Shown here in pieces: positions 30,734-44,574 of a stretch of 64,000 nt of DNA. Source of the DNA: Galdieria sulphuraria (lineage: Eukaryota > Rhodophyta > Bangiophyceae > Galdieriales > Galdieriaceae); assembly GCF_000341285.1 (NCBI RefSeq), contig NW_005178457.1:118501-182500 (forward strand), in the 5' to 3' direction. The position numbers and the translations under genes were made by a program. Every line of letters begins with the position of its first letter. Within the stretch, counting starts at the first letter, position 1. The notes under the pieces were generated by a model. It worked only from the letters and a program-made list of their open reading frames with translations, searched no databases and was not told the origin of the DNA.

Positions 30734-31287
30734 CTATTCTGTTTTGTCCAATATGTCTACTTCTTTTTCATTTCGAAACTCCATCAATAAGAAATCAATA
30801 TCTTCAATCACTTGAGAAAGAGTAAGATATTGTCTACTTAATATGGCTTGCTGTTCTGCAAGTTCCAAACCGTCTAACCTATCCTTGAAAAGTTTCATAT
30901 CTTTGCGAATCTTTTGGACGGAAACTGTAGTCTCCAATTTATACTTTTCTAATTGCTCCAACTGTTCTATCCACTCATAAATAGAGTGCTCATAAGAAAC
31001 ACTCGACTTTAGGTTGGCAAGTCTCTCATCCAAGGATTCTAGATGATTCTACCCATAAAAAGAATAACAACTAAAAATATGAAACTCACAAAACGTTCTT
31101 CTTCCAAACTTACCTTTACTTGTTGACATACTCTCATATACTGTTCCGCTGAAGAAAGAGTGGCTTCGTTTCTTACAAACTCTTGAAAGGCTTGTTCCAG
31201 AGCATTATAACAAACTGCTCTCTCTTCTTGCAACTCCAAAATGGTTTGACAAACCTCCATCCTGTACTTTTCACTTGCTACTTCCAT
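30734..31287 (-). CDS. REX1-B domain protein (DNA repair)
   Basis: Exons 31287-31114 and 31048-30734; 162 residues, nearly all helical. Seen: TILELQEERAVCYNALEQAFQ, YMRVCQQV, LDERL, and WIEQLEQLEKYKLETTVSVQ, which follow the order LQ.ER...Y...E.AF and LQ..EK.KLELTA of the REX1-B (required for excision 1) family. The family is named from a Chlamydomonas gene needed for repair of UV damage; its biochemical role is not well known. The first 17 bases of this CDS overlap the end of the RNase-H-fold gene upstream on the same strand, in a different frame. Confidence 0.7.
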
Positions 31288-32314
31288 TACAAAGAACAAA
31301 ACAGTTGAGGCGTTGTCCAAGTTCAGAAATGCTTCTCTGAATCCTATCTTCCTCTAGTCTCAATAGTTGAGCTTCAATATTTTTGTCAAGTGATTTGTTT
31401 CTTTCAGCTGCTTTGCTACGTTTTCTAGTTGAATTATTTGATATTATCAAGTCAGGATACTCTTCTAAAAGTTGTCTTTCTTCTTCCAATCGAATGGCAT
31501 ATCGAGCAGCTACATATGCATCGCTAATATCAAAATTGGTCGAACAAAAAGCTTTAGAACGTGGACGATATCGTGTTTCGAAACCTAAAAGAAAAGGATA
31601 GGCATGATCAAATACAATTTGCTTAATATCTTTGCTTGTGTTTTGTTTCTTTGACGATAAACCTAACCAACTTCTTGCTTTAGAGGCATGAAACTTGAAT
31701 GGCCTCCTTTGAAAGATCCAACGACACTCATAGGAAACTAGTGTATTCAATTCTGCAAGACCAAACAAGGAAACTGCTCTTGACTGACCAATGAGAAAAC
31801 GAAATAGATAAGCCTCCACACCAACTACCCAAGAGATATTCTTATTCACTCCAATAAACTCTTTGTAAAAGTGCTCTGTATCTGCTTTCAGGTGTACCAA
31901 CTCTTCCCTGACATAGTCCACTTTATCAAAAGCATCCGCTCCTTCCATATGTTGTAGATCAATCATACCGTGACGTATTGCTTGGCCTGTCCAACCTGAT
32001 ACTATCGCAAATCCTATTGACTTGGTATGAATATCAAGTCCTAAACTCAATAAAGTTTCGGAAGACAGTGTTGGTGTATCTTCTTTACTACTCTTGCTTT
32101 CAAAATAGGTCAAGGCTTTTGTTGGTTGTCTTTCTTTCTTCTGTGAATATTTGGATTTACAATAACTTGAACCAACCAAAACTCTAAAAGAAATACGATG
32201 GGAAGGAAGAACTGTTCTTTGAAACCAAGGCAATGAAACGAAAGTAACAATCAACATGAAAAGGATCAATTCAAAAAAATAACTTTTCACTGAAATGAAT
32301 TTGTTACATTCCAT
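31271..32314 (-). CDS. RNase-H-fold (RuvC/resolvase-like) protein with N-terminal leader
   Basis: Single exon, 347 residues. An N-terminal hydrophobic segment (about residues 12-30) is followed by a basic Ser/Lys-rich stretch, which may be a bipartite targeting leader. The core begins LGLDIHTKSIGFAIVSG, a first-strand Asp typical of RNase-H-like nucleases, then VVGVEAYLF with a Glu, and ends with FDISDAYVAARYAI, where Asp residues again sit in the expected catalytic position. That order (D...E...D.xD) fits Holliday-junction-resolvase-like enzymes of plastids or mitochondria. A C-terminal coiled coil of about 60 residues follows. The specific family is not certain; fold assignment is inference. 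Confidence 0.5.
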   Translation of the reverse strand: MECNKFISVKSYFFELILFMLIVTFVSLPWFQRTVLPSHRISFRVLVGSSYCKSKYSQKKERQPTKALTYFESKSSKEDTPTLSSETLLSLGLDIHTKSIGFAIVSGWTGQAIRHGMIDLQHMEGADAFDKVDYVREELVHLKADTEHFYKEFIGVNKNISWVVGVEAYLFRFLIGQSRAVSLFGLAELNTLVSYECRWIFQRRPFKFHASKARSWLGLSSKKQNTSKDIKQIVFDHAYPFLLGFETRYRPRSKAFCSTNFDISDAYVAARYAIRLEEERQLLEEYPDLIISNNSTRKRSKAAERNKSLDKNIEAQLLRLEEDRIQRSISELGQRLNCFVLCNGSSK

Positions 32315-32384
32315 TTATTCCTCAGGTAGAATAGAATCATACAATTGGCTGCAGTACCCACACTTTGCATATAACAGACTATCA

Positions 32385-32455
32385 AGACAATATCAAATCC
32401 GCAATGTTCCTCTCCTCTTTACAACGGAGTTGGAGAACATTCCTTCATAAGGGTC
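32385..32455 (-). promoter_or_regulatory. Candidate SECIS element in selD 3' UTR
   Basis: On the minus strand, starting about 30 bases after the selD stop, lie ATGA (32448-32445), a helix AATGTTC pairing with GAACATT, an AA 13 bases after ATGA in the apical loop, and on the return strand a GA within GGAT (32400-32397). This is the eukaryotic SECIS core layout: non-Watson-Crick quartet, helix, unpaired AA. Folding was judged by eye only. Confidence 0.6.
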
Positions 32456-32476
32456 TTGACCATAAAAATGATCTCT

Positions 32477-33674
32477 TCACTCCACATCGATTATCTCTAT
32501 CGGCTCTTTCACATACGCGTCTCGGTTTCCATCCACAACTCGACCAACAACAAAAGACCTCCAACCTTCTTCTAAATATATCTCATTCAAGAAACCTTCA
32601 ACATTATCAACAGGAAATGCAATTAATAAGCCACCACTCGTCTCTGCAGAAAGCCCTCGACGTAACTGAAACCTATCCCCTTGTCTAACCCAACCATCTA
32701 CCTTTGCCATGCCTTTTATGCAAGGAAGACATTCTAGTACAAAAGTTACATGTCTCCTAATACAACATGAGAGAATGAGATCAAGTTTCTCTAGCAAAAT
32801 ACCTTTGTTGTCGTGCAAGATTCTTTGCGTGGCCTAATATTCCAAATCCTGTCACATCAGTAGCTGCATGTGCGTTGTATTTCTTCATCAAAATAGCTGC
32901 AGTTCGGTTCAGTCTTTGCATACTTTCTGTTGCCACATCATAGGCCCAAAGAACTTCACCTTCATCAGTAACTCCTTCGACTTGTTTCCACAAATCTGGT
33001 TTAGATACCAACCACTGATGTAAATTGACAGCAACCTGTGTACCAAGAGGCTTCGTTAAAACCAAAATATCGCCAACTTGTGACTCGGATAACTGAACAA
33101 GTTCACCTTTGGGTACAACAGACATTGCAGTACCTCCAATCATGGGCCAAGGATTAAATATGGTTTGACCACCTGTTACTTTACTGCCAGCCTTTTCTAC
33201 TTGATCAGAAAAACCCTTTATCATCAATTCCAATACTATTCTTCGTTCCTCAAGAGGCATATCTGAGCTGCCAGCTAATATCATCAAGACATTAGTACAA
33301 CTGGTTATTCCTGCTGCATACAAATCTGACAATACGTTAGTTGCTCCAATCTTGCCCATAACATAAGGGTCCTCCACAAGAGGATAGAAAAAGTCGGTTG
33401 TAGAGGCTAAAAACACATCCGGGACTCCACTCGGTTGTAGAGAACAATCAGAACCGATTCCCTGACAAAACGATGGGGGAGGATCACTTTCCTGACAAGA
33501 ATGGTCTGTAAGACAACGTTCCAACAGACCCTCTAGCTCTACCTGAGGAATCTTACATCCTCAGCCTTTTAAACGAGAAAAAGAAGTCAATAAAAAGTCT
33601 TTTGGCAGACCGACACTTTGTGGTTCAAACTGCGAAGTTTTGGGTTCCTTCAACGGTGGAATACAGTCTTTCAT
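32477..33674 (-). CDS. selD: Selenophosphate synthetase, a selenoprotein (in-frame TGA)
   Basis: Exons 33674-32803 and 32756-32477; 383 residues counting selenocysteine. It makes selenophosphate from selenide and ATP, the selenium donor for Sec-tRNA. Read continuously, the active-site loop is SRLKG-U-GCKIPQ: the TGA at 33561-33563 sits exactly where SelD enzymes have Cys or Sec. Translation on both sides is unmistakable SelD: FEPQSVGLPKDFLLTSFS before it; VGDILVLTKPLGTQVAV, ATDVTGFGILGHAKNLA and ETSGGLLIAFP after it. Two open frames flank the TGA with no splice sites that would remove it. A SECIS-like fold follows the stop codon. So Sec insertion, not a broken gene, is the best reading. Confidence 0.9.
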
Positions 33675-42838: not shown

Positions 42839-44574
42839 ATGGCATTTTGTACGACATGTGGTTGTGGCATCACTTGCTTTCATGGACGCTCAGCAAAGAA
42901 AAGACCTTTTCTAGAAAAGCATAGCTTATTTCTTATTTCTATACCTTATACAAGACTTGGTAGTCGTTGCCGTTTTCAAGCATTAGACAGAAGTTTAGGA
43001 TGTTTTTGTAAGCTCGCAAACTGGTTTCCTCTCAATAAGTACCAGAAAGATATACCTACTGCTTTCAAACTTTTGTTTGCTGTTTCTAAAATAGACAAAG
43101 CCAACTTAGCTTTAGCGTTCGTCTTGTTAGGTGCCCTTTATCGTGCTTCTTCCCATTCTTGGTAAGTAGGCAACTTTGTCACAGTGCATTCAGGTTTAGC
43201 TGACAAGTTGAAACTAGCCTCCTCAAGCGACAAATCTCGTCAAACAAGCAATATTTATTGTATGAAACTTGTACTCATCAGAGAATTGATTATTTCTTGA
43301 ACCCGTCAAACGGTGACTTGTTGATAGCTCCAAGTATCGATTCACGTACTGTGTGGAGAAAGATTCTAGACCTCTTGAATAGTTCTTTTCTTCCAGAGAA
43401 TTGCAAGAAAACAGTATCTAAGGATTATTTTTGGTTTACAACTTTTAATTTTTTGCAGAATGTTGTGAATTGTTGCATTGGTGTTATATCCACTCAACAG
43501 CTTTTGCGAGCTGTTGGACTCTCTGCTAGTCAAGGAATTGGAAAGTCTGCCTCGCTTAACTGGGTTTTAAAGGATGGAATTGGAAGGTTGGGTGCCATTG
43601 TCTTTGGAAGTTTTATTGGCAATCGGTTCGATGCAGATCCAAAACGTTGGAGACTTTGGGGCGATATTTTGTATGCGTTTGGAATTGGAACGGAAATCAT
43701 ATCGCCGTTACTGCCTCGATATTTCTTATTAGTCGCATCATTGGCCAATATGGTAAAAGCAACTTCTTACATGCTTCGATTACCTACAACTGCAGCTATT
43801 AGACGGTCTTTTGCAAAGCGAGAAAATTTTGGAGATATTTCAGCCAAGGCTAATTCTCAAGAAGTGCTTTCAAACTTATTTGGCACTTTTTTGGGAATCG
43901 GTTTCAGCATTATACTTGGCCATAGTTGGTGGCAACTGAGTGTTGCATATTTTGTATACTTTATTATGTTCTTTTTACTCAATTATTTGGGAGTGAAAGG
44001 TCTTCATCTTCGAACTCTGAATTTGCAACGATCCTTGTTATTAGGCTGGAGTTACTGGAAGTCTTCCCAGGTTTCAACTGTTGAAGAGGTCAATTATCGA
44101 GAGAATGTGATTTTGCCGTCCATAATGAGTTTTGGACGTTATATCCGGTTTGGCGTATCGTTACGAGATATTCATTTGACTGGTTCGGAACTTGCAGCAC
44201 TATTAGACAAGTATCGACAAGCCAAATATTTATTGACTGTTCGACATGGTCAAGTGTATATTGTTTTTCATATGGAAGCTCGAGTGAAGGATGAGTTACA
44301 AGCCATTTTGCAAGCGACCTTTTTAGCACAAGAAAATGGCTGTATTTGTACGGATAGACTTGAGCAAAGTTATACCGTTGCTAAGGAACATTTGGAACAT
44401 TTTATATTAGAGTTAAAATCCAAAGGTTGGAAAACCGAAGAATTTTTACATTCTGGTGCGCAACGTTATCGAGCGTTTTGGAATGTAACAAGTTGGAAAT
44501 TATCCAACTCCAGCTACATTTCTGAATTGGCATTTAGAGAAGCCAAAGGTAATACTAACTGTGAACTTTCATAG
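42839..44574 (+). CDS. RUS/DUF647 family protein
   Basis: Exons 42839-43161 and 43218-44574; 559 residues. Root-UVB-sensitive proteins are conserved plastid or membrane proteins linked in plants to light sensing, vitamin B6 and auxin; biochemical role unclear. Seen: VVNCCIGVISTQQLLRAVGL, KSASLNWVLKDGIGRLGAIVF, GNRFDADPKRWRLWGDIL, the hydrophobic RYFLLVASLANMVKATSYML, NFGDISAKANSQEVLSNLFG, GWSYWKSSQVSTVEEVNYRE-type C-terminal domain and GWKTEEF near the end. The first exon begins MAFCTTCGCG and is rich in Arg, Ser and Cys; a Phe near the N-terminus is typical of red-algal plastid transit peptides. ATG at 42824 or 42827 is also possible. Confidence 0.82.

Follow-up and report, generated by a model that had tools for sequence, protein, structure and literature searches.

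Sequence comparison identifies the minus-strand gene running from 33674 to 32477 of the window (the whole stretch of 64,000 nucleotides analysed here) as a eukaryotic-type selenophosphate synthetase, SPS2/SelD, and this enzyme, which activates selenium for the synthesis of selenocysteine (Sec), the 21st amino acid, very probably carries a Sec at its own active site by way of a recoded stop codon. We give a probability of about 0.95 to the reading in which this is a eukaryotic SPS2, itself a selenoprotein, whose UGA codon 38 is decoded as Sec by the SECIS, SBP2 and eEFSec, and which feeds its own decoding. From the reading frame, the position of the codon, the predicted SECIS fold and the machinery genes found in the genome, we infer that Sec is inserted at UGA 38. 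The gene has two exons and one intron, with the following features.

32803..33674, minus strand: exon 1 of selenophosphate synthetase (SPS2/SelD), start codon 33674-33672, aligning with solved SPS proteins; the one SelD match of the genome

33561..33563, minus strand: in-frame TGA, predicted Sec codon (Sec38) in LKG-U-GCK, from the alignment with SPS proteins and bacterial SelD codons

32757..32802, minus strand: 46-nt GT-AG intron, predicted from sequence, whose removal joins the exons as LARQQ-RRHVTFVLECLP, matching the register of the solved SPS chains

32477..32756, minus strand: exon 2, terminal stop TGA at 32477-32479

The spliced coding sequence (33674-32803 joined to 32756-32477) has 383 residues and one internal stop, the TGA at 33561-33563, around which the frame reads MKDCIPPL...LTSFSRLKG-U-GCKIPQ. 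Translated with Cys in place of the TGA, the gene product hits three PDB chains: 3fd5 (SPS1, 332 bits), 5l16 (SPS, 311 bits) and, at a far lower score, 2yye (SelD, 94 bits); we take these three to be from human, Leishmania and Aquifex, respectively. The best comparison to a PDB SPS chain has an E-value of 4e-98 and aligns residues 14 to 382 of the 383. Exon 1 alone scores 208 bits against TIGR00476, above the cut-off of 125 for SelD family membership, and in the 12.05-Mb assembly TIGR00476 has one match, which is this SPS2 gene with one TGA inside. A recent bacterial origin of the gene is rejected, as the protein is 28-36% identical to bacterial SelD (80 loci kept of at least 587) versus 50% identical to the 5l16 segment.

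The catalytic loop is U38-G-C40-K41, that is, the Cys/Sec position followed by G/A, C/A and K that defines the family. In the column of the TGA, 5l16 and 2yye have Cys and 3fd5 has Thr. In the 80 bacterial SelD loci (again kept of at least 587), the homologous codon is Cys in 46 (38 TGC and 8 TGT), TGA in 24 and uncalled in 10, a count in which the script tallied only Cys and TGA codons so that other residues could not appear. An earlier note on this DNA had placed an in-frame TGA at the Cys/Sec position of SelD, with strong SelD coding on both sides of it; frame and alignment confirm the codon, and the flanking residues align with the solved SPS proteins, so that an intron across the TGA would delete conserved residues. 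The 46-nt intron farther along the gene is absent from that note.

Past the end of the coding sequence lies the element on which the decoding would depend.

32383..32458, minus strand: predicted form-2 SECIS, with basal helix, ATGA/GGAT quartet, helix II, unpaired AA and mini-helix III

A form-2 SECIS is characterised by an ATGA/NGAN quartet, a helix II, an apical unpaired AA and a mini-helix III, and all of them are present here. The element starts 18 nt past the SPS2 stop with a basal helix of 6 bp (CAAGAC/GTCTTG) followed by an internal loop; the ATGA (32448-32445) is 28 nt past the stop, and 13 nt lead from it to the unpaired AA. Helix II includes a perfect 7-bp AATGTTC/GAACATT, the mini-helix has 4 bp, and the return strand has GGAT at 32400-32397. 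Every part of the layout described in the earlier note (an ATGA about 30 bases past the stop, a 7-base helix, an AA at +13 and a return-strand GA) is thus recovered. The element shares with the form-2 SECIS of RF00031 helix I, the AUGA/GGAU quartet, helix II, the unpaired AA and helix III, and it differs in scoring under the Rfam cut-off: the in-register alignment of SECIS_1 (RF00031) scores 18.1 bits against a gathering cut-off of 35. What supports the SECIS claim is the fold, the position and the genomic context; membership in the Rfam family plays no part. A whole-genome RF00031 search does not have the SPS2 element among its matches, and its one match (17.5 bits, E 8.4) is at locus L009 (G000:C76:8920-8982); since it misses the window's own element, the genome-wide SECIS_1 search is unusable as a screen.

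Using a SECIS descriptor that was composed after the SPS2 element had been seen, we find 31 hits on both strands of the 64-kb window, with the SPS2 site, at -13.3 kcal/mol, lowest in energy. Hits as good as the SPS2 SECIS have a mean of 0.79 per 64 kb (both strands) in 24 dinucleotide shuffles, which amounts to about 0.0006 expected in the 100 nt past the SPS2 stop. When the descriptor is run on 41 of 62 loci from the same genome (282 kb on both strands, partly overlapping), three distinct places, none of them a known selenoprotein, beat the element of the GPx gene described below, so that the descriptor is evidence only jointly with position. The lowest descriptor energy among those loci, -17.3, is found about 700 nt downstream of the tRNA-Sec (locus L001, 2295, plus strand) with only 7 helix-II pairs; this match is probably due to chance. 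The wider 126-nt region around the SPS2 SECIS does not fold with unusual stability (z = -0.48, with 61 of 200 shuffles folding at least as well).

Elsewhere the genome has the set of genes expected of a Sec-utilising eukaryote: tRNA-Sec, SBP2, eEFSec, SepSecS and, probably, PSTK. The tRNA-Sec, with a UCA anticodon, scores 67.9 bits against an Rfam cut-off of 47; the other 8 matches in the genome are below the cut-off, and all 14 control genomes matched, 5 above the cut-off. The RNA-binding region of SBP2 matches 7zjw_B (E 1.1e-32), its sole PDB match at E of 0.001 or less. For eEFSec, the match to PDB 7zjw_E/5izk has an E-value of 1.2e-116, with 394 bits, while the protein ranked second, a SelB, has 146; the NCBIfam selB family has 18 matches, none at the cut-off of 242.25 (the best has 181.6 and the eEFSec locus 170.4), so the identity of eEFSec rests on the PDB comparison. 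SepSecS is found in several exons on contig C1 (E 1.5e-54). The PSTK candidate, the weakest member of the set, matches a PDB chain at E 1.8e-8 over residues 153-344 and TIGR03574 at 8.5e-17, with scores far under the NCBIfam cut-offs (61.4 versus 290.5 and 48.8 versus 382.35). The earlier note had proposed a working selenocysteine system in this red alga, predicting tRNA-Sec and SECISBP2 elsewhere in the genome and naming a search for eEFSec as a check. All three genes are there. Its further prediction of other selenoproteins is borne out by a TGA-containing GPx.

We find one GPx gene, with two exons on contig C61 (locus L058 1884-2400; G000:C61:19383-19899). A TGA stands at its catalytic position (NVASL-U-ALRNKNY), and the terminal stop is also TGA. 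An AUGA-led, SECIS-like hairpin with basal helix, quartet, AA and mini-helix lies 21 nt past that stop. Judged by these features GPx is likely a second selenoprotein, and SPS2 is therefore probably not the sole client of the Sec system. The GPx hairpin and the SPS2 SECIS follow the same plan in different sequences, having little primary sequence in common and a MAFFT alignment that is out of register. Rfam SECIS_1 has no match to the GPx element at E-values up to 10. A covariance model made from the SPS2 SECIS alone matched, in the window plus the GPx locus, only the SPS2 SECIS; with filters off, its four matches in the GPx 3' region have at most 3.5 bits and do not include the GPx element. 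Genome searches for Rdx (SelT/W/H) and for Sep15/SelM each give 0 matches, and MsrA is the Cys form, GCFWG. The one pattern used for a thioredoxin-reductase-type GCUG-stop has 2 matches versus 5 in the backwards control, neither of the two in an open frame. As the selenoprotein search covered SelD, GPx, Rdx, Sep15/SelM, MsrA and the GCUG-stop pattern, the selenoproteome of SPS2 and GPx is a lower bound.

The coding sequence of SPS2 may carry signals of its own, of the kind called the Sec redefinition element (SRE). In a scan with 30-nt windows, its two strongest distinct local hairpins are found at or just past the Sec codon.

33543..33564, minus strand: SRE-like hairpin CTGAGGA-8 nt-TCCTCAG, pairing the Sec codon itself (-12.0 kcal/mol, second strongest in the coding sequence)

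33503..33530, minus strand: SRE-like hairpin GGTCTGT-14 nt-ACAGACC, starting 33 nt past the first base of the Sec codon (-13.5 kcal/mol, strongest in the coding sequence)

Under 4000 synonymous-codon permutations within the gene, the UGA-pairing hairpin has a P-value of 0.00425, the downstream hairpin 0.01375 (for equal strength in windows starting 15-63 nt downstream), and both jointly 0.00025, with 1 of the 4000 permutations matching both; taken as one fold, the full 84 nt at the Sec codon have P = 0.002 by codon permutation. As the hairpins were noticed before testing, these values are optimistic. Sampling by codon usage for six window sizes gives 0.002, 0.004, 0.010, 0.059, 0.004 and 0.0865, two of the six above 0.05, which shows a dependence of the signal on window size. 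SPS2 thus has what marks an SRE, a stable hairpin at or just past the UGA beyond the constraint of the protein sequence, and the two hairpins probably favour recoding over termination in an SRE-like manner. A 33-nt window at the GPx UGA shows no local hairpin (0.0 kcal/mol), and wider windows fold at raw energies of -9.3 and -14.8.

None of the 24 bacterial TGA loci (within the 80 kept of at least 587) reaches the -11.7 that SPS2 has from -3 to +24 around the UGA, the best being -11.1, and all three UGA bases are paired in this interval in 6 of the 24. In all 24 the energy from +9 to +48 is lower than around the UGA, while SPS2 has the reverse (-9.2 versus -11.7). Descent of the SPS2 hairpins from a bacterial SECIS is not supported by this comparison; since no bacterial TGA locus folds as strongly at the UGA, we do not claim homology, and the result favours a separate arrangement.

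In its treatment of SPS genes, PMC4561486 (Genome Res. 2015) describes stable stem-loops at the UGA in all UGA-containing eukaryotic SPS genes examined, the HRE overlapping the UGA. The hairpins reported here resemble those SRE and HRE elements in that there is a stem-loop at the UGA, one overlapping it, and they differ in form: in this one gene a pair of simple hairpins is present, of which the first has the UGA within a stem of 7 bp. Tentatively, and with more doubt than confidence, we suggest a dual signal far from animals, in which the 3' SECIS acts along with a UGA hairpin pair whose first member locks the UGA in its 7-bp stem. If this dual signal is functional and the host is a red alga, the SPS2 coding-region elements would predate the split of the animal and plant lineages, and the hairpins could act as a selenium-sensitive switch on the selenium-donor enzyme.

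Other accounts of the TGA have to be weighed against Sec. An error of sequencing or assembly would make the codon TGC or TGT and the gene an ordinary Cys SelD; one base suffices, and Cys is the residue at 46 of the 80 bacterial loci (kept of at least 587). But a SECIS lies shortly past the stop, the genome retains tRNA-Sec, SBP2, eEFSec and SepSecS, a second gene, GPx, has a TGA at its own catalytic position, and the UGA pairs within a hairpin whose strength exceeds the expectation from codon permutation, all of which makes an error very improbable. To the same small degree we credit readthrough of the kind seen in hymenopteran SPS1-UGA genes, where a different amino acid is inserted and the function is that of SPS1 and not SPS2. 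A hairpin overlapping the UGA would agree with it, as this is the placement given for the HRE in the SPS sections of PMC4561486. The hymenopteran case is reported to be without SECIS and most of the Sec machinery, whereas both are present in this genome; and because this gene is the only SelD match, such readthrough would leave a Sec pathway without a known selenophosphate source. Least credible is a pseudogene or truncated protein with the TGA as a true stop, for although TGA also serves as the terminal stop of both the SPS2 and GPx genes, the frame is otherwise open in both exons and aligns with solved SPS up to residue 382 of 383, the single stop sits exactly on the Sec column, and no second SelD match accompanies the Sec machinery.

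In the preferred reading, a Sec-containing SPS2, UGA codon 38 would be read by Sec-tRNA(Sec), delivered by eEFSec and guided by SBP2, which would sit on the SECIS of the short 3' region. SPS2 would produce the selenophosphate that SepSecS would use, with phosphoseryl-tRNA(Sec), to make Sec-tRNA(Sec), and SPS2 would in this way feed the decoding both of itself and of a Sec-containing GPx. The steps of the pathway are established knowledge, restated in the background given in PMC6627142. Both the SPS2 and GPx genes end in UGA shortly before a SECIS. For Dio1, the relevant portions of PMC3316567 and PMC3737529 give a minimum UGA-SECIS spacing of 51-111 nt; the terminal UGA of SPS2, 28 nt before the SECIS core, is inside this minimum and should still terminate. 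Spacing may then let one SECIS recode the Sec UGA, far outside the zone, and spare the terminal one.

In the sections on red algae, Liang et al. 2019 (PMC6627142) report a complete Sec machinery in some red algae and credit G. sulphuraria with only a few selenoproteins, so the SPS2 finding overturns nothing; these sections name neither the Sec carriers of Galdieria nor the status of its SPS. The same sections place three rhodophyte SPS in clade III with archaea, protists and fungi, with AIRS and AIRS_C domains only. The 2020 work on algal selenoproteomes (PMC7539508) describes, in its part on red algae, very small selenoproteomes. Galdieria is absent from the main texts of PMC4561486 and PMC5330540, and literature searches for Galdieria with selenoprotein, GPx or selenocysteine, and for Cyanidiophyceae with selenocysteine, gave no title or abstract opening on this SPS2 gene. 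With this work, a compact genome gains a selenoprotein gene together with its decoding system, and a gene model is flagged, as an annotation taking the TGA as a stop would shorten SPS2. With at least SPS2 and GPx in it, the small selenoproteome suits tests of SECIS spacing, of stop/Sec discrimination and of UGA-proximal hairpins.

The gene is like eukaryotic SPS2 (SEPHS2-type; 3fd5, 5l16) in its end-to-end alignment, its LKG-U-GCK loop and its UGA with a 3' SECIS, and it differs in having a 46-nt intron, 162 nt from the stop to the next ORF, and a SECIS that begins 18 nt past the stop. That next ORF, at 31271-32314 on the same minus strand, has no Pfam match; because it starts 162 nt after the SPS2 stop, the SECIS takes up roughly half of the very short gap between the genes. 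The ORF contains the text LGLDIHTKSIGFAIV, which resembles what we take to be a RuvX/YqgF start. Farther away, on the plus strand, 43204-44574 encodes a Root UVB sensitive (RUS) family protein, a family typical of plants and algae.
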